Positions 2 to 7,658 of a DNA stretch of 7,658 nucleotides are shown here, in pieces. Numbering within the stretch: position 1 is the first letter of the stretch; each line of letters opens with the position of its first letter. Under the pieces are notes generated by a model, which did not search any database, was not told where the DNA came from, and was given only the letters and a program-made list of their open reading frames with translations. The position numbers and the translations under genes are program-made. The stretch comes from Planctomycetes bacterium UBA2386 (GTDB lineage: Bacteria; Planctomycetota; UBA1135; UBA2386), in contig DDSQ01000192.1 in NCBI GenBank assembly GCA_002343845.1, positions 1-7,658 of the forward strand. The letters are read 5' to 3'.

Positions 2-676
2 AAGCTCGGCCTGGCCGCGCCCGACGCACTGGCCGACCTGGGCGCCATTGCCGAACTGCGCGGCATCACGGTGGCCGGCGGCGCCGTGAAGATCGGCGCC
101 ATGACCACGCACGCCGCGGTGGCCGCCAGCGCCGACGTGCAAAAGGCCATCCCCGCGCTGGCCGACCTGGCCGGCAACATCGGCGACCGCCAGGTGCGCA
201 ACCGCGGCACGATCGGCGGCAGCCTGGCCAACAACGACCCGGCGGCCTGCTACCCGGCAGCCGTGCTGGGCCTGGGCGCCACGGTGCACACGAACAAGCG
301 CGACATCGCCGCCGACGACTTCTTCCAGGGCATCTACACCACCGCGCTGGCCGAGGACGAGATCATCACCGCGGTGAGCTTCCCCATCCCCGAGAAGGCG
401 GGCTGGCAGAAGTTCAAGCAGCCGGCGTCGCGCTTTTCGATCGTGGGCGTGTTCGTCAGCAAGGGGCCGAAGGGTGTGCGCGTGGCCGTCACCGGCGCCG
501 GCGCCGGCGGCGTCTTCCGCGCCAAGGCGCTGGAAGACAAGCTGGCCGCCAGCTGGTCGGCCGCGGCGCTGAACGGTGCGGTGGTCAGCGCCGACGGGCT
601 CAACAGCGACCTGCACGGCTCGGCCGAATACCGCGCCGCGCTGATCCCGGTGCTGGCGGCGCGCGCGGTGGGCTGA
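2..676 (+). CDS. Molybdenum hydroxylase FAD-binding (medium) subunit, CoxM/XDH type, 5'-partial
   Basis: The reading frame is open from base 2 to a TGA at 674-676, giving 224 visible residues; the start lies outside the window. It matches the FAD-binding subunit of xanthine/CO dehydrogenase-type enzymes, which passes electrons between the iron-sulfur subunit and the acceptor through FAD in the cytoplasm. Visible family marks are IGAMTTHAAVAAS, then DRQVRNRGTIGGSLANNDPA (TIGGS at 209-223 is the second FAD-binding loop), and a C-terminal SAEYRAALIPVLAARAV, which matches the usual end of the CoxM C-terminal domain. The family is normally about 260-290 residues, so some 40 N-terminal residues are missing, including the first FAD loop (AGGxS). 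A GTG at 71 is in frame but internal to the domain and is not the real start. The substrate (CO, a purine or another compound) cannot be told without the large subunit. The family call is firm. Confidence 0.93.
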   Translation, partial: KLGLAAPDALADLGAIAELRGITVAGGAVKIGAMTTHAAVAASADVQKAIPALADLAGNIGDRQVRNRGTIGGSLANNDPAACYPAAVLGLGATVHTNKRDIAADDFFQGIYTTALAEDEIITAVSFPIPEKAGWQKFKQPASRFSIVGVFVSKGPKGVRVAVTGAGAGGVFRAKALEDKLAASWSAAALNGAVVSADGLNSDLHGSAEYRAALIPVLAARAVG

Positions 677-746: not shown

Positions 747-1649
747 GTGAGCGACCTGCCTTCCAGCATCGACGACACCGCCGCGCAACTGCTGGCGCAC
801 GACTATGTGCCCGACCGCCAGCTGGCCACCGTGGTCTTCCTGGCGCTGAAACTGCAGCGCCCGCTGTTCCTGGAAGGCGAGCCCGGCACCGGCAAGACCG
901 AGATTGCGCGCACCCTGGCCACCATGCTCGGCCGCGAGCTGATCCGCCTGCAGTGCTACGAAGGCCTCGACCTGGCCGGCGCCGCCTACGAGTGGAACTA
1001 CGGCCGGCAGATGATGGAGATCCGCCTGGCCGAGAAGGAAGGCATCACCCGCGACGCGCTGGCGGCCGAACTCTTCAGCGAGCGCTTCCTCAACCAGCGG
1101 GCGCTGCTGCGCGCCATCGACCCCCAGCGCGAAGTGCCGCCGGTGCTGCTGATCGACGAGCTCGACCGTGCCGACGAGCCCTTCGAGGCCTTCCTGCTCG
1201 AGGTGCTGAGCGAGTTCCAGATCACCATCCCCGAGCTGGGCACCATCAAGGCCGTTCAGCCTCCCATCGTCATCTTGACCAGCAACCGCACGCGCGAGAT
1301 CCACGACGCCGTCAAGCGCCGCTGCCTGTACCACTGGGTGGGCTTCCCCGATGCCGCGCGCGAGCTGCAGATCCTGCAGCGCCGCGTGCCCGGCGCCGGT
1401 GAGGAACTGGCGCGCCAGATCGTCGCCTTCGTGCAGAAGCTGCGCGAGATCGAGCTCTACAAGCTGCCCGGCATCGCCGAGACCATCGAATGGACGCGCG
1501 CACTGATGCAGCTGGACGCGCTGGTGCTGGACCCGCGGGTCATCCAGGACACCCTGGGCGTGCTGCTGAAGTACCAGGACGACATCGCGCGTGTGCAGGG
1601 CAGCGAGGCGGCGCGCATCCTCGAGCAGGTGCGCAGCGCGGCGCGCTAG
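747..1649 (+). CDS. MoxR-family AAA+ ATPase (CoxD-like)
   Basis: A cytoplasmic 300-residue AAA+ ATPase of the MoxR class. Beside CO dehydrogenase-type genes the homologue CoxD is known to help mature the metal active site, working with a VWA-domain partner; that role is inferred here from context. Motifs seen: Walker A GEPGTGKT at residues 44-51, Walker B VLLIDELD at 133-140, sensor 1 ILTSN ending at N180, then basic residues KRR at 190-192 in the arginine-finger region. The length is normal for the family. The GTG start at 747 begins MSDLPSSIDDTAAQLL; only a weak GGA (735-737) precedes it. The terminator hairpin sits just upstream, so transcription comes from read-through or from a promoter inside the FAD subunit gene. 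The DUF2164 gene follows after 14 bases and the VWA gene after that, so these read as one operon. Confidence 0.92.
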   Translation: MSDLPSSIDDTAAQLLAHDYVPDRQLATVVFLALKLQRPLFLEGEPGTGKTEIARTLATMLGRELIRLQCYEGLDLAGAAYEWNYGRQMMEIRLAEKEGITRDALAAELFSERFLNQRALLRAIDPQREVPPVLLIDELDRADEPFEAFLLEVLSEFQITIPELGTIKAVQPPIVILTSNRTREIHDAVKRRCLYHWVGFPDAARELQILQRRVPGAGEELARQIVAFVQKLREIELYKLPGIAETIEWTRALMQLDALVLDPRVIQDTLGVLLKYQDDIARVQGSEAARILEQVRSAAR

Positions 1650-1663: not shown

Positions 1664-1954
1664 ATGGCCATCGAACTGGACAAGGACACCCGCGCCCGCG
1701 CCATCGCGTCCATCGAACGCTGGTTCCAGGACGAGCGCGACGAACGCATCGGCAACATCGCCGCCGGTGCGCTGCTGGGCTTCTTCCTCGAGGAGATCGG
1801 GCCCAGCGTCTACAACCAGGCCGTGGCCCAGGTGCAGGAGCGGCTGATGCAGCGCATCGGCGAGCTCGACATCGAGGTGCACGAGGACGAATTCGGCTAC
1901 TGGCGCAAGATCGACGCCGCGGCCCGCGCTGCCGGCAAGGGCCGCGGCCGCTGA
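1664..1954 (+). CDS. DUF2164 family small protein
   Basis: A 96-residue soluble protein that begins MAIELDKDTRARAIASIERW and carries the DUF2164-type core: an acidic and basic N-terminal helix, ERIGNIAAGALLGFFLEEIGPSVYNQAV in the middle (about residues 47-74), a VQERL helix, and an acidic VHEDEFGYWRK end. No signal peptide or membrane segment is seen, and the function of the family is unknown to me. It has a good Shine-Dalgarno site (GGAG, 8-base spacing), starts 14 bases after the MoxR ATPase and ends 2 bases before the VWA gene ATG, so it is co-translated with two enzyme-maturation genes. That placement suggests, but does not prove, a helper role in the same process. The family assignment is from memory of the conserved core and is fairly sure. 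Confidence 0.82.
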   Translation: MAIELDKDTRARAIASIERWFQDERDERIGNIAAGALLGFFLEEIGPSVYNQAVAQVQERLMQRIGELDIEVHEDEFGYWRKIDAAARAAGKGRGR

Positions 1955-1956
1955 GC

Positions 1957-3015
1957 ATGCTGAGGCTGGACCAGAGCCCGGGTCACCTGGCCGAGAACGT
2001 CATGCACTTCGGGCGCGTGCTGCGCGCTGCCGGCATGCCGGTGGGCAGCGACCGCGTGCAGGCCGCGCTGCAGGCGCTGCAGGTGGCCGGGCTGCAGCGG
2101 CGCGGCGACTTCCACGCCGTGCTCAGCGCCTGTCTGCTCGACCGCATCGAGCACCGCGAGCTGTTCGACCAGGCGTTCCACCTCTTCTGGCGCGACCCCG
2201 ACCTGGAAGGCCGCATGCGCGCCCTGCTGCTGCCCAAGGTGCAGATCAAGGACGGCCCGCCGCCGGTGCCCGAAAACCGCCGCCTGGGCGAGGCGCTGTT
2301 TCCGCGCGGCCCCGAGGACGAGCCGCCGCCTGCTGGCGAGCAGCTGGAGATCGACGCCGCGCTGACCTTTAACGACCGCGAGCAGTTGCAGAAGGCTGAC
2401 TTCGAGACCATGAGCGCCGACGAATGGCGCCAGGCGCAGCGCCTGCTGTCGCAGCTGAAGCTGGCCTTCGAGCCCATCCGCACCCGCCGCAGCCGCCGCG
2501 CCAGCCACCCCGGCCGGCCCGACTGGCGCGGCACGCTGCAGGCCATGGCGCGCCATGGCGGCGAGCTGTGGAACCTGCGCTGGCGGCAGGAACGCACACG
2601 ACCGGCGCCGCTGGTGGTGCTGGCCGACATCTCGGGCAGCATGAGCCGTTATTCGCGCATGCTGCTGCACTTTGGCCACCTGCTGGGCCATGCCGACGCA
2701 CGGGTGGAGAGCTTCGTCTTCGGCACCCGGCTCACACGCACCACCCGATTGCTGAAGAGCCGCGACCCCGACCTGGCCGTGGGCCAGGTGGTGCGGGCGG
2801 TGGAAGACTGGTCGGGCGGCACGCGCATCACGTCCACGCTGCATGAGTTCAACCAGCGCTGGGCGCGGCGCGTGCTGTCGGGCAATGCCACCGTGCTGCT
2901 GATCACCGACGGCCTGGAGCATGGCGACACCACGGCACTGGGGTTCGAGATGGAACGCCTGCACAAGAGCTGCCGGCGCCTGATCTGGCTGAACCCGCTG
3001 CTGCGCTTCGACGGC
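1957..3015 (+). other. CoxE-like VWA portion of the chimeric ORF, missing its C-terminus
   Basis: This part belongs to the ATPase and DUF2164 operon by spacing and codon use. CoxE-type proteins carry a VWA metal-binding domain and work with a MoxR ATPase; in CO dehydrogenase loci the pair is implicated in active-site maturation. The N-terminal half (residues 1-210) has the family-typical helical region with FHLFWRDPDLEGRMRALLLP, followed by a proline and acid-rich stretch and an arginine-rich RTRRSRRASHPGRPDWRGTL. The VWA fold runs from LVVLADISGSM to CRRLIWLNPLLR. Normal members go on for roughly 40-50 more residues after NPLLR; that tail is absent here. Confidence 0.82.
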
Positions 3016-4245
3016 TACCACATGCTCTGCGACGCGGCCCAGCTGCCCAACCTGGCCACGCGCAGCCGGCGCTGGTGCTGGCAGCAGCTGCGCGCCGCGG
3101 TGCTGCGGACCGCCGAGCCGCGGCCGCTGGTGCCCGCCCGCGGCGAGGCACCATGGCTGTGGGCCTACGCGCCGCTGTCGCTGCTGATGCGCTGGATCGT
3201 GTCGCTGGCGGTGCTGGCGTGGCTGGCGGGCGTCTCGCCGTGGGTGGCGGCGGCCGTCGCGTTGCCGCTGGCCTGGTTGCTGCTCGTGCGGCCGTGCGTG
3301 CAGGCCTGGCAGCTCTGGCAGGGCAGCGGGGCCCCGGCCGCGCGGCGGCGGCAAGTCGCGCGGCGGCTGGCAATGGTCGCGATCGCGGCCGTCCTGCTGG
3401 TCGGCGTGCTGCCGTGGCCCTACCGCACGACGGTGCAAGGCGTCTGGTGGCAGCCCGAGGACAACCTCGTGCGCACCGGGGTCGATGGTTTCGTGGCCGA
3501 GGTCGTCGCGGGCCATGGCCAGGCGGTGCAGGCCGGCGATGTGCTGCTGCGCCTGCACACCCCCGCCGTCGAGGCCGAGCGGGCTCGGCTGGCCGCGCGG
3601 GTCGAGGCGCTGCGTTCCGAGCAATGGCAGGCCTTGCGCGATGACCCGCCGCGGGCGGTGCAGCTCGAGCACGAACTCGCCGCGACGCGCGCCGAACTCC
3701 AGCGCGCGCAGGCCCAGCTCGACAGCCGCCTGGTGCGGGCGTCGACGGCCGGCCGCGTCGCGCTGGCCGGCGAGGCCGACCTGCCCGGCCGCTGGCTGCC
3801 GCGCGGCAGCCTCGTGGCCCACCTGGCGACGGGCTCGCCACCGGTCGTGCAGGCGGCCGTGCCGAACGAGGATGTCGCGCTCGTCGCCGCGGCCTCGCCG
3901 CGCGTCCAGATCCGGCGCGCCGACCCGCGCGCCCCGGCCCTGGTCGCCCGCTGGGACGGGTTGCTCAGCGGCGCCGGCTCGCCGCTGCCGAGCCCCGCGC
4001 TCGGCGAGCGCAGCGGCGGCAGCCTGGCGACGGATCCCGCGGATGCACAAGGCCTGAAGCCGCTGCGGGCGGTCGCCGTCGCGCAGCTGCGCCTCGAGCC
4101 GGGTCAGGCGGCCGCGACGGGCGAGCGCATCGGCGAGCGCGTCTGGGTTCGCTTCGACCACGGCCACGAGCCGCTGGCCGGCCAGGCCGCCCGCGCGATC
4201 CGCCAGACCCTGCTGCGCCACCTTCAACCGGACCCCCGACGATGA
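1957..4245 (+). CDS. Chimeric ORF: CoxE-like VWA protein fused in frame to the C-terminal part of an M50 peptidase/HlyD protein
   Basis: One uninterrupted frame of 762 residues made of two unrelated parts. Residues 1 to about 350 are a CoxE-like VWA protein with MIDAS residues DISGS (224-228), T289 and D318 (LLITDG). Residues about 346 to 762 are the rear of a membrane M50-type peptidase joined to a HlyD-like adaptor: NPLLRFDGYH (346-355), LPNLATRS (363-370), hydrophobic segments near 400-450 and 470-488, a lipoyl-like half motif GVDGFVAEVVAGHGQAVQAGD after residue 508, a charged Glu/Arg coiled coil, and a second half VRASTAGRVALAG. The ATG at 1957 is chosen because it lies 2 bases after the DUF2164 stop and begins the conserved SPGHLAENVMHFGRVLRAAG segment; the open frame reaches back to 1591 but only as a shadow of other genes. 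The stop overlaps the next start (ATGA, 4242-4245). I know of no family with this combination, so the fusion is a recombination product or an assembly join. Confidence 0.8.
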   Translation: MLRLDQSPGHLAENVMHFGRVLRAAGMPVGSDRVQAALQALQVAGLQRRGDFHAVLSACLLDRIEHRELFDQAFHLFWRDPDLEGRMRALLLPKVQIKDGPPPVPENRRLGEALFPRGPEDEPPPAGEQLEIDAALTFNDREQLQKADFETMSADEWRQAQRLLSQLKLAFEPIRTRRSRRASHPGRPDWRGTLQAMARHGGELWNLRWRQERTRPAPLVVLADISGSMSRYSRMLLHFGHLLGHADARVESFVFGTRLTRTTRLLKSRDPDLAVGQVVRAVEDWSGGTRITSTLHEFNQRWARRVLSGNATVLLITDGLEHGDTTALGFEMERLHKSCRRLIWLNPLLRFDGYHMLCDAAQLPNLATRSRRWCWQQLRAAVLRTAEPRPLVPARGEAPWLWAYAPLSLLMRWIVSLAVLAWLAGVSPWVAAAVALPLAWLLLVRPCVQAWQLWQGSGAPAARRRQVARRLAMVAIAAVLLVGVLPWPYRTTVQGVWWQPEDNLVRTGVDGFVAEVVAGHGQAVQAGDVLLRLHTPAVEAERARLAARVEALRSEQWQALRDDPPRAVQLEHELAATRAELQRAQAQLDSRLVRASTAGRVALAGEADLPGRWLPRGSLVAHLATGSPPVVQAAVPNEDVALVAAASPRVQIRRADPRAPALVARWDGLLSGAGSPLPSPALGERSGGSLATDPADAQGLKPLRAVAVAQLRLEPGQAAATGERIGERVWVRFDHGHEPLAGQAARAIRQTLLRHLQPDPRR
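2989..3018 (+). other. Chimera junction at a shared LNPLLRFDGY sequence
   Basis: The codons for L-N-P-L-L-R-F-D-G-Y fit both parents: CoxE proteins end their VWA domain with RLIWLNPLLR followed by an aromatic residue and often DG, and M50 peptidases of the HlyD-fused type have NPLLR-F-DGY-H as the motif carrying a zinc-ligand aspartate. The exact crossover cannot be placed inside this stretch. The frame is kept. Confidence 0.75.
3016..4245 (+). other. M50-type peptidase/HlyD-like membrane portion of the chimeric ORF, missing its N-terminus
   Basis: This piece resembles the second half of the proteins often annotated as putative peptide zinc metalloprotease, in which a site-2-protease-like membrane domain is followed by a HlyD-like periplasmic arm. 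DGYHMLCDAAQLPNLATRSRRW is the usual stretch after the zinc-ligand NPLLxxDG motif. Hydrophobic segments follow at about 3150-3300 and 3364-3420. The rest is periplasmic: lipoyl-like halves flank a coiled coil (about 3550-3730), then a barrel-like region with VRF and a basic end. The N-terminal membrane region with HExxH is absent, so as it stands this part would not be a working protease. It belongs with the SecA-like and adaptor genes that follow. Confidence 0.75.
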
Positions 4246-6311
4246 ACGCGAGCCTCGACACCGTCCTTGCCGATCCCGCGCCGCTGCCGGTGATGACCCG
4301 CTCGACGCTGCCGGCGGCGTCGGCTCCCGCGCCCGCCGATGCCGCCCCGACGCACCGCCGCCGCCTCGCGCTGGCGCGCCCGGGCCTGCAGTGGGGCCTG
4401 CAGCCGCAGCGTCGCGAACACGAGGCGGCGTGGTATGCGACGCCGTGGCAGCGGCTGCGCCTGGCGCGTCAGGCGCTTTTCCTCGACCCGGCGGAGGTGC
4501 GCGACGTGCGCGTGCGCCAGCACGCGTGGACGCTGCTGGGCAGCGACGGCGAGTCTGCGCTGCGGGCCGCGCTGCGCGCGCGCCTGGCGGCGGACGGCTT
4601 CACGCCCGCGCTGCGCGACGAGGCCTTGGCCTGCGTGGCCGCGAAGGCGTATCGCGTGCTGCGCCGCAGCCCCTACGAGACCCAGTTGCTGTGCGCCCGT
4701 GCGCTGATGGACGGCCACCTGGTCGAGATGGCCACGGGCGAGGGCAAGACGCTGGCCGTGGCGCTGGCCGCCGCGGCGATCGCGCTGTCCGGCACGCCGG
4801 TGCACGTGATGACGGCCAACGACTATCTCGCCGTGCGCGACGCGCGGCTGCACGCGCCGCTGTTCAGCGCACTCGGGCTGCGCGTGGGCATGATCGTGGC
4901 GACCTCGACGCCCGAACAGCGCCGCGCCGCGTACACCGCCGACGTCACCTACGCCACCGCGCGCGAGATCGCCTTCGACCACCTGCGCGACGACCAGACC
5001 CTGCAGGCCGCCGGTCCCGAGGGCCGCGGCGACCTCGCCCGCCGTGCGGCCCGGCTGGCCGGCGAGGCAGCGCCCGCGTTGCTGCAGCGCGGCCTGTGCT
5101 GCGCGCTGCTCGACGAGGCCGACAGCCTGCTGATCGACGAGGCCGTGATGCCGCTGGTCCTGGCCGAGCCGCACGACGACCCGCAGCTGCGGGCGGCGTG
5201 TTTCCAGGCACTCGCGCTCGCGCGGCAGCTGCAGCTGGACGAACACGCGGTGCTCGACACGGCCCAGCAGGCCGTGCACTGGACGCCGGCCGGGCTCGAG
5301 CGACTCGAGTCGCTGTCCGCCGGGTTCGGCGGCGCCTGGCTGAACCGCGCGCATCGGGAGGACCTGGCTGCGCAGGCGCTGGTGGCCCTGCACGGGCTGC
5401 ACCGCGAGCACGACTACCTCGTCGAGGACGGCCGCGTCGAGCTGCTGGACCGCCTGAGCGGCCGGCGCGCCCAGGGCCGGGTCTGGTCGCGCGCGCTGCA
5501 GACGCTGGTCGAGCTGAAGGAAGACTGCCGGCCGAGCCCGTCCAGCCGCACCGCGGCGCAGACCAGCTACCAGCGCTTCTTCGCGCGCTACCACCACCTG
5601 GCCGGCACCAGCGGCACGCTGGCCGAGTGCCGCGGCGAACTCGCGGCGGTCCACGGCAAGGCCGTGGTTCACGTGCCGCTGCGCCGGCCGAGCCTGCGCG
5701 AGGACCTGCCGCCACGCGTCTTCGAAGCCTCGTGCCAGCGCGAGGCGGCGGCCGTGACACGCATCGCGAACCTGCAGGCGATCGGCCGGCCGGTGCTCGT
5801 CGGGGTGGCCTCGGTGGCGGCCGCGCAGGCCTTGTCGGCGGCGCTGGCGGCCGAGGGCGTCGAACACGAGGTGCTCGACGCGCGCCACGAGGCTGGCGAG
5901 GCCGCGATCATCGCGCGCGCCGGTCGCAGCGGGGCCGTGACCGTGGCCACCGCGCTGGCCGGGCGCGGCACCGACATCGAGCTCGGCCCGTGTGTCGCCG
6001 CGCTCGGCGGCCTGCACGTGCTGGACCTCCTGGACACGCCCTGCGCGCGCACCCGCCGCCAGCTGATCGGCCGCGCCGCGCGGCAGGGCGACCCCGGCAG
6101 TGCCGAGACCTGGCACGCCGCGGACACCGCCGTCTGGACCGACGGCTTTCTCGACAGCCCGCGCAGCGACGCGCCGTTGTGGATGGTGCAGGCCGCCAGC
6201 CGCCTGCAGCAGCGTTTGCATGGCTGGACCCAGCGGCGGCTGCGCCGTCGCCTCCTGAAGCAGGACCTCGCATGGCAAAGAAGACTCGGCTTTTCAAGGC
6301 GGCACGCCTGA
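4242..6311 (+). CDS. SecA-like ATPase, shortened (accessory export motor)
   Basis: A 689-residue SecA-related DEAD-box ATPase, cytoplasmic or at the inner membrane, presumed to drive or assist export of a dedicated substrate. SecA marks in order: ETQLLCARALMDGHLVEMATGEGKT with Walker A at 163-170; VHVMTANDYLAVRDA 187-201; TYATAREIAFDHLRD 236-250; LLDEADSLLIDEA 289-301 (the DEVD box of SecA, here DEAD); EHDYLVEDGRVELLDRLSGR 389-408; LAGTSGTL 453-460; VTVATALAGRGTDIELG 566-582; and QLIGRAARQGDPGS 607-620. A region like the SecA preprotein cross-linking domain lies between about 305 and 390. Housekeeping SecA is about 900 residues; only about 70 follow the last ATPase motif here, so the helical scaffold, helical wing and zinc-binding tail are gone or much reduced. 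The first 45 residues are low-complexity Ala/Pro. The start overlaps the preceding stop (ATGA) and the adaptor gene starts inside the 3' end, so translation is coupled. It is not the housekeeping secA. Confidence 0.9.
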   Translation: MNASLDTVLADPAPLPVMTRSTLPAASAPAPADAAPTHRRRLALARPGLQWGLQPQRREHEAAWYATPWQRLRLARQALFLDPAEVRDVRVRQHAWTLLGSDGESALRAALRARLAADGFTPALRDEALACVAAKAYRVLRRSPYETQLLCARALMDGHLVEMATGEGKTLAVALAAAAIALSGTPVHVMTANDYLAVRDARLHAPLFSALGLRVGMIVATSTPEQRRAAYTADVTYATAREIAFDHLRDDQTLQAAGPEGRGDLARRAARLAGEAAPALLQRGLCCALLDEADSLLIDEAVMPLVLAEPHDDPQLRAACFQALALARQLQLDEHAVLDTAQQAVHWTPAGLERLESLSAGFGGAWLNRAHREDLAAQALVALHGLHREHDYLVEDGRVELLDRLSGRRAQGRVWSRALQTLVELKEDCRPSPSSRTAAQTSYQRFFARYHHLAGTSGTLAECRGELAAVHGKAVVHVPLRRPSLREDLPPRVFEASCQREAAAVTRIANLQAIGRPVLVGVASVAAAQALSAALAAEGVEHEVLDARHEAGEAAIIARAGRSGAVTVATALAGRGTDIELGPCVAALGGLHVLDLLDTPCARTRRQLIGRAARQGDPGSAETWHAADTAVWTDGFLDSPRSDAPLWMVQAASRLQQRLHGWTQRRLRRRLLKQDLAWQRRLGFSRRHA
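6262..6265 (+). promoter_or_regulatory. Shine-Dalgarno site of the adaptor gene
   Basis: AGGA lies 6 bases before the ATG at 6272, inside the end of the SecA-like gene. It fixes the adaptor start, since the frame itself is open far upstream to 4391. Confidence 0.6.
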
Positions 6312-7519
6312 TCCCCGGCCCGGGGCTGCTGGCGCTGCTGAGCCTGTCGCCGTCGCTGACCGGCGGTCCGGCCGTCGCCCGCGACGTGCCGGCTGCGGCC
6401 CCGGCAGTCGACGCACCGCGGCTGGCGCTCGCCGCGACGACGACCCCCGCAGCGGTCTCGCAGCCGCCATCGACGGCCGGCCCGTGGGCCGGCGGCCCGG
6501 CTGCGGCCTTGCCCGGCGGACCGACGAACGGCGCGAGCTCCAGCGGAGCCGGCGCGGCCGTTTCGCCCGCCACGCCGGCGCCGGGCAACGGGCCCTCGAC
6601 GGGTCGCCCTCACCGCGGTTCGGTCGGCTGCCTGATCGGCCCGGAGCGCTCGGCCGACATCGGCAGCGCGGTGACCGGGGTGGTCGCCGCGATCCGCGTC
6701 GATCGCGGCGACAGCGTGCGCCGGGGCCAGCCCCTGGTCGTGCTGCAGAACGCCGTCGAGCAGGCCAACCTGAAGGCGGTCGCGGCGCGCCATGCGATCG
6801 AGGCCGACATCCGCAGCGCCGAGGCCAGCGTCGCGCTGGCCCGCGAGCGCCACGAGCGCTTCGCGAGCCTGGTCGACACGGGCGCGATCGCGCTGCTGAC
6901 GGCCGAGCAGGCCAAGGCCGAGTACGACGTCGCGCGCCAGCGGCTGCAGCAGGCCCTCGGCCAGCGTCGGGTGATCCAGCAGGAGCTCGGCGTCGCGCAG
7001 GCGCAGCTCGCCCAGCGCACGCTGCGTGCGCCCTTCGACGGCGTCGTCGTCGAGCGCCTCTCGCACGAGGGCGAGCGCGTCGAGGAGAAGCCGTTGCTGC
7101 GCATCGCGCAGCTCGATCCGTTGCGTGTCGAGCTGGTGATGCCGGCATCCCGCTGGGGGAGCGTGCAGGCCGGCCACACGATGCGCATCGTGCCCGAGCT
7201 GCCCGGCACGACGGCACTGGTGGCCCGGGTCACGCACATCGATCGCACGCTCGATGCGGCGAGCAACACCTTCCGCGTGCGCCTGGCGCTGCCCAACCCC
7301 GGCAACCGGATCCCGGCCGGCGCACGCTGCCGGGCCGATGCGCCCGAAGACGTCGCGGCGGCACCGGCCGGCACTCTCGCCGTGGGCGTTCCGCCACGGG
7401 ATGCCGCTGCGTCCGCTTCGTCGCGGGACGCCGCTGCGCCCGTTCCGTCGCGGGACGCCGCCGCACGCGACACGACCCCAACGGGCCAGCCCGTGCCGCG
7501 TCGCGGCCCGGCCGCCTGA
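6272..7519 (+). CDS. Periplasmic adaptor protein, HlyD/AcrA (RND membrane fusion) type
   Basis: A 415-residue exported adaptor that would link an inner-membrane export component to an outer-membrane channel. The N-terminus MAKKTRLFKAARL followed by a hydrophobic run to about residue 30 and an AVA-RD site near 36-37 looks like a signal peptide. Residues 38-113 are a Pro/Ala/Gly-rich linker. The folded part begins GCLIGPERSADIGSAVTGVV; the first lipoyl half is about 131-160 (VDRGDSVRRGQPLVVL), the coiled-coil hairpin 161-250, the second lipoyl half 251-280 (LRAPFDGVVVERLSHEGERV), and the barrel 283-355, with SNTFRVRLALPNPGNRIPAG typical of RND adaptors. The C-terminus carries three 9-residue repeats and a Pro/Arg-rich end. 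The ATG at 6272 is supported by AGGA 6 bases upstream and by the signal peptide; it overlaps the SecA-like gene by 40 bases. No RND pump gene is seen here, so its partner is probably the M50/HlyD membrane protein or an unseen transporter. Confidence 0.88.
   Translation: MAKKTRLFKAARLIPGPGLLALLSLSPSLTGGPAVARDVPAAAPAVDAPRLALAATTTPAAVSQPPSTAGPWAGGPAAALPGGPTNGASSSGAGAAVSPATPAPGNGPSTGRPHRGSVGCLIGPERSADIGSAVTGVVAAIRVDRGDSVRRGQPLVVLQNAVEQANLKAVAARHAIEADIRSAEASVALARERHERFASLVDTGAIALLTAEQAKAEYDVARQRLQQALGQRRVIQQELGVAQAQLAQRTLRAPFDGVVVERLSHEGERVEEKPLLRIAQLDPLRVELVMPASRWGSVQAGHTMRIVPELPGTTALVARVTHIDRTLDAASNTFRVRLALPNPGNRIPAGARCRADAPEDVAAAPAGTLAVGVPPRDAAASASSRDAAAPVPSRDAAARDTTPTGQPVPRRGPAA
7387..7467 (+). 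repeat. Three tandem 27-base repeats in the adaptor C-terminus
   Basis: Three imperfect direct copies at 7387-7413, 7414-7440 and 7441-7467, with no gap between them. They encode VPPRDAAAS, ASSRDAAAP and VPSRDAAAR, sharing the core RDAAA. Being a multiple of three, copy-number change would keep the frame. The segment is probably a flexible tail outside the folded adaptor core. Confidence 0.85.
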
Positions 7520-7565
7520 GCGCGTCGGCCGCAAGCCGCCAACCGCCTGTTCCTCCGCACGCCGC
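7520..7565. other. Short spacer before the LEPR-type gene
   Basis: 46 bases between the adaptor stop and the TTG start. No inverted repeat with a T-rich tail, no clear promoter and no convincing Shine-Dalgarno sequence is seen, so the downstream gene is probably read from the same transcript. Confidence 0.5.
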
Positions 7566-7658
7566 TTGAACGCCCGCCAGACCCGTCCCCGCGCCCAGCT
7601 CGAGGCCCTCGAGCCGCGCATCCTCTACGCCGCCGACGCGCTGGCGCTGGCGGCGCAG
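7566..7658 (+). CDS. LEPR-XLL-type large surface/secreted protein, N-terminus only (3'-partial)
   Basis: The last 93 bases encode 31 residues from a TTG start: an Arg/Gln-rich lead MNARQTRPRAQ and then LEALEPRILYAADALALAAQ, open to the window end. The LEPRxLxxADA motif near the N-terminus is typical of very large, repetitive proteobacterial proteins, often followed by a DUF4347 domain and cadherin-like or similar repeats, annotated as LEPR-XLL domain proteins. I know this from family resemblance; nothing after the motif can be seen. No ATG or GTG lies in frame in the 75 bases upstream, and the TTG gives the usual short lead before the motif, so it is the best start although no good Shine-Dalgarno site precedes it. 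It is the likely substrate of the export genes upstream. Confidence 0.68.
   Translation, partial: MNARQTRPRAQLEALEPRILYAADALALAAQ

Follow-up and report, generated by a model that had tools for sequence, protein, structure and literature searches.

A 762-residue frame joining CoxE-type and M50/HlyD sequences is very probably a chimera of assembly or library preparation

Introduction

An open reading frame that begins as one protein family and ends as another, unrelated one raises the question of where the two were joined, in a cell or in the making of the sequence. In the window analysed here, by which we mean the whole stretch of 7,658 nucleotides, such a frame occupies positions 1957-4245 and encodes 762 amino acids followed by a stop codon. 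The original prediction read it as the start of a CoxE-like VWA protein running on in frame into the end of an M50-peptidase/HlyD membrane protein, and attributed the joining to a peptide shared by both families, acting either through recombination in the cell or through an assembler. Here we combine profile searches, alignments to relatives, DNA comparison across the join, gene neighbourhoods and codon usage in weighing these explanations.

Results

The frame is made of two incomplete proteins

Three features make up the frame:

1957..2991, + strand: CoxE-type VWA part, residues 1-345 (PF05762; 305/355 to the relative P0002; coxE DNA identity drops afterwards)
2989..3018, + strand: the join, LNPLLRFDGY, a block common to both families (identity switch; all 25 shared strings of at least 20 bases lie here)
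2992..4245, + strand: M50-peptidase/HlyD second half, residues 346-762, without HExxH (416/417 to residues 323-739 of P0001)

Our analysis confirms the proposed make-up: the frame follows a CoxE-type VWA protein as far as about residue 345 and, from residue 346 onwards, an M50/HlyD protein, of which it holds the second half; Pfam domains and the alignments to P0001 and P0002 agree on this. The Pfam VWA_CoxE profile (PF05762) matches residues 170-356 with an E value of 2.8e-53, spanning profile positions 8-198 of 222, so that the domain is incomplete, and HlyD-type profiles match only beyond residue 490. Residues 345-354, encoded by 2989-3018, read LNPLLRFDGY, and the NPLLRFDG that starts at residue 346 supplies the motif NPxxxxDG, which we take to be the second M50 motif. 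A scan of all 762 residues for the HExxH motif found none. Each partner is thus without the part that it was expected to lack, the CoxE profile stopping at 198 of 222 and the HExxH half of the peptidase being gone.

Intact relatives carry the missing parts

A protein search with the full 762-residue frame yielded 5434 relatives from 7998 scored candidates. The best 120 of these comprise 112 CoxE-type proteins of 419-448 residues and 8 M50/HlyD proteins of 730-746 residues; none has the fused architecture, and coverage of the query never exceeds 58%. A search of 200 related genomes, with up to 5 candidates scored per genome, matched 121 genomes, and none of the listed matches both starts before residue 300 and ends after residue 400. 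A 762-residue fusion of this kind in other genomes, the outcome that had been named as speaking against an artefact, is therefore absent both from the best 120 of 5434 proteins and from the listed matches of the 200-genome search. A 48-base stretch across the join likewise had 0 matches in a viral collection; for a bacterial contig this is to be expected, and it carries little weight.

The right-hand partner was recovered intact. P0001, an M50-HlyD protein of 739 residues on another contig (13,399 bases), shares 416 of 417 positions with window residues 346-762 over its residues 323-739, and it carries HEAAH at residue 227, an N-terminal half of its own and NPLLRFDG; against the M50 profile PF02163 it scores 26.0 bits, slightly below the cut-off of 27.2. 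The left-hand partner is represented by relatives only, at no more than 86% identity. The closest of these among the best 120 of 5434, P0002, matches window residues 1-354 at 305 of 355 positions, then continues into a CoxE tail and fills the VWA_CoxE profile to 222 of 222, and no intact coxE of the left organism itself was found among those 120. The expectation that both free partners would be found thus held for the HExxH-bearing M50-HlyD protein and failed for the CoxE protein with its tail, which appeared only in relatives. When P0001 and P0002 are compared with each other, their best match is 7 of 9 residues, around NPLLRFD.

The two sides belong to separate neighbourhoods

To the left of the fused frame the window holds:

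2..676, + strand: FAD-binding subunit of a xanthine-dehydrogenase/CO-dehydrogenase-type molybdoenzyme, its start cut by the window (PF00941, E 5.6e-34)
747..1649, + strand: MoxR-type AAA+ ATPase, CoxD-like (AAA families; NF047784, E 4.5e-79, 265.7 bits, below the cut-off of 475)
1664..1954, + strand: small DUF2164 protein (PF09932, E 4e-25)

To its right lie:

4242..6311, + strand: SecA-like ATPase of 689 residues (PF07517, PF21090, PF01043)
6272..7519, + strand: HlyD-type membrane fusion protein (PF16576, PF13437)
7566..7658, + strand: start of a LEPR-XLL protein, cut by the window end (NF012209, E 1.6e-7, 30.7 bits against a cut-off of 17)

In residues 1-345 and in its operon of molybdoenzyme FAD subunit, AAA+ ATPase and CoxE-type gene, the window resembles known CoxE loci (VWA_CoxE, PF05762), but it differs from them in lacking both the tail and the last part of the conserved domain. 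CoxE acts together with the AAA+ ATPase CoxD in the maturation of CO dehydrogenase, according to PMC4240915. Residues 346-762 and the right operon, in turn, resemble M50 membrane peptidases with an HlyD part that stand beside SecA-like, HlyD and LEPR-XLL genes (P0001 and the M50 loci described below), with the difference that the N-terminal HExxH half is absent from the window.

We assembled 120 loci of relatives from the M50 alignment (the best 80 of 142 confirmed) and from genome searches, and compared the window proteins with them by tblastn. coxE is present in 39 loci, among which two coxE places are counted twice; MoxR accompanies it in 38, and in 32 the FAD subunit is there too. In these 39 loci, which hold at most about 4 kb, tblastn detected no M50, SecA-like or window-type HlyD gene. 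The other 81 contain M50, accompanied by the SecA-like gene in 69, by an HlyD gene in 50 and by both in 41, and in these tblastn detected no FAD subunit, MoxR or coxE. Not one of the 120 loci holds both coxE and M50. Given the length of the coxE loci, this count shows separate neighbourhoods rather than distance; where both halves do occur on one long contig they can sit far apart, as in genome G144 (contig C1), near 5.47 Mb and 3.37 Mb. The two sides of the window follow two different standard neighbourhoods, and the change falls at the join. Named relatives of both the left and the right block are Rubrivivax and other Burkholderiales.

Several further observations concern the two operons themselves. 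The DUF2164 gene sits between MoxR and coxE (1664-1954); it may be specific to this lineage, since a search of the 120 loci at E 1e-8 found no relative. The exact window MoxR protein (P0242) occurs on 1 contig of 13,400 bases, and its relative P0243, 99% identical, comes from a contig that is 1,592 bases long. The cluster of the SecA-like protein (P0122) occurs on 2 contigs, the longest of 13,400 bases, and we infer that the second is the 13,399-base contig of P0001. At 13,399 bases, the contig of the intact M50 protein is thus nearly as long as the window's own, which apparently has 13,400. The SecA-like protein itself scores at best 375.5 bits against a cut-off of 862, and because its scores lie far under the cut-offs of the SecA and SecA2 models it may form a family of its own. 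The right block (3019-7658) represents a recurrent set of M50-HlyD, SecA-like and second HlyD genes, all three of which occur in 41 of the 81 M50 loci. A frame with a LEPR-XLL-like motif is present in 14 of 80 M50 loci, in 13 of these downstream and on the same strand, and the set may serve specifically to export large LEPR-XLL proteins. Our literature search found LEPR-XLL named in 2 papers and no paper combining at least three of SecA-like, HlyD, peptidase M50 and LapA.

DNA identity switches at the shared block

The proposal that the switch lies at the shared NPLLRFDG block is borne out at the DNA level, where identity to relatives changes as well. We read the join site in 36 of the 39 coxE loci, those with the motif by which the site was located. 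In the 60 bases to the left of codon 346, the number of positions matching the window is 25-52 in these 36 loci as opposed to 12-24 in 29 of the 81 M50 loci; in the 60 bases to the right of the block the relation is reversed, with 8-20 in the coxE loci and 30-51 in the 29 M50 loci. Across all 81 M50 loci the mean number of matches is 20.4 on the left and 34.9 on the right. DNA identity thus passes from coxE-like to M50-like at base 2992. Between the flanks lie 18 bases, and 7 of the 36 coxE loci and 5 of the 29 (of 81) M50 loci agree with the window at every one of them.

Past the site, all 36 coxE loci have a CoxE tail that follows the pattern F-x-(P/A)-(R/K)-A-x-G. That CoxE homologues might instead continue into the membrane region had been put forward as evidence against a chimera, and no such continuation appeared in the 36 coxE relatives read. 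Together with the completion of the CoxE profile in P0002, this makes it hardly credible that CoxE-type proteins naturally run on into a membrane region and that there is no join at all.

The block also stands out in a direct comparison of the two gene families. In 899 coxE-M50 gene pairs (31 by 29, picked by length and identity, two coxE places entering twice), 25 exact strings of at least 20 bases are common to both genes, and all 25 lie at this block; 8 of the 31 coxE loci and 9 of the 29 M50 loci contribute these strings, which therefore do not count as 25 independent cases. The longest common string lies at the block in 240 of the 899 pairs and elsewhere in the remaining 659, where it never exceeds 19 bases, and when coxE is compared with the M50 genes in reverse complement the maximum is 18 bases. 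Because all common strings of at least 20 bases lie at the block, the join falls at the place that offers an assembler, or a recombinase, the longest identical stretch between coxE and M50 genes.

How long the overlap is differs between genomes. From base 2992, the exact run shared with the window in the 36 coxE relatives reaches a maximum of 25 bases, being at least 16 in 13 of them and at most 8 in 19; to judge from these sequences, a long overlap is likely in the true left parent. In seven genomes that carry both genes, the run common to coxE and M50 at the block is 7-18 bases.

Composition is compatible with one genome or two

The GC content of the window is 70.4% before base 3000 and 76.6% after it, and the best single change point, at base 3028 with a log-likelihood gain of 19.4, adjoins the join. 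We considered this step as proof of two genomes and dropped it, as GC3 is similar on both sides (0.927 left, 0.934 right); with GC3 alike, the step resides mainly in codon positions 1 and 2, that is, in the amino-acid make-up of the right-hand proteins.

For codon usage we compared coxE and MoxR with M50 and SecA, as far as these were present at each locus. The left-right difference in the window, 0.0174, ranks third from the top among 20 single-genome comparisons, with 2 of the other 19 above it, and 81 of 342 between-genome comparisons lie at or under it; among the 99 between-genome pairs with high and similar GC3 the median is 0.016. The seven-genome version of the comparison gives the same picture. 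With all window genes included the difference is 0.027, and gene by gene against the left genes it is 0.008-0.012 for the SecA-like gene and 0.032-0.064 for M50 and HlyD. Neither base composition nor codon usage settles whether the window comes from one genome or two.

Discussion

Our results lead us to conclude that the contig is, very probably, a chimera that arose at a short shared string during assembly or library preparation. Reads or graph paths from an FAD-subunit/MoxR/DUF2164/coxE operon of Burkholderiales type would be the source of the left side, and an M50-HlyD/SecA-like/HlyD/LEPR-XLL operon, again of Burkholderiales type, would be that of the right. The two would have been joined at an identical string, perhaps as long as about 28 bases, from which both genes encode NPLLRF(DG), and the joining would belong to assembly or library preparation, not to the cell. 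The homology-driven joining of coxE with M50/HlyD that had been predicted finds support in P0001, which matches the right half at 416 of 417 residues and possesses the HExxH half that the window lacks. The occurrence of the SecA-like protein on 2 contigs, against 1 for the exact MoxR protein, also speaks for a chimera.

Recombination in the cell, which would act at the short string, either between two loci that are unlinked in a single Burkholderiales genome or with a fragment acquired by transfer, is the best of the alternatives, and we regard it as unlikely. Both genes can share a cell, as 7 of 15 searchable genomes with this M50 gene also contain a CoxE match at E 1e-100 or better, and codon usage and GC3 are compatible with a single genome. 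However, the common run of only 7-18 bases in the seven two-gene genomes makes such an event less likely; it would be a deletion, inversion or translocation with its break inside both genes, leaving both broken and the fusion a dead by-product. A second fusion, moreover, is found neither among the best 120 of 5434 proteins nor among the matches listed from the 200 genomes, and a near-identical intact right locus exists in P0001, perhaps from another strain, as one residue differs. We therefore judge assembly to be much likelier than recombination in the cell. A genuine recombinant chromosome, in which unrelated operons had been joined and the conserved peptide NPLLRFDG had served as a recombination point between non-homologous genes, appears if anything slightly more doubtful again.

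A working fusion protein, in which the VWA domain would steer a membrane-bound HlyD-like tail, is very improbable. Its 762 codons are open, but protein relatives of this make-up are lacking among the best 120 of 5434 and the listed 200-genome matches, both partners are cut inside conserved parts, and the near-identity of the tail to an ordinary M50-HlyD protein leaves no post-fusion divergence visible. If the join was made during assembly or library preparation, the open frame needs no selection to explain it, since the NPLLRF string has the same reading frame in both families. The 762-residue frame is not a new protein architecture, and the protein is probably absent from any cell.

Chimeric contigs of this general kind have a precedent. 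According to passages of PMC8171044, sequence common to two species gives rise to chimeric metagenome contigs via shared nodes, and large shares of contigs assembled from test data by several assemblers were chimeric. The window resembles the contigs joined at a common de Bruijn-graph node that are described there in that differing flanks would meet through a common stretch and each side matches a different ordinary locus. It differs in that the stretches treated in those passages are common to evolutionarily similar species, whereas here the bridge would be a short conserved peptide of two unrelated families and the frame remains open.

Users of this sequence should divide the contig near 2989-3018 and handle the two pieces separately before working with either operon, and the 762-codon frame should be flagged as a probable error before it is studied as a new gene. 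Surveys of domain fusions would score such a frame as a new architecture. The lesson from these two families is that a conserved peptide of otherwise unrelated proteins can link separate loci during assembly without interrupting the reading frame.
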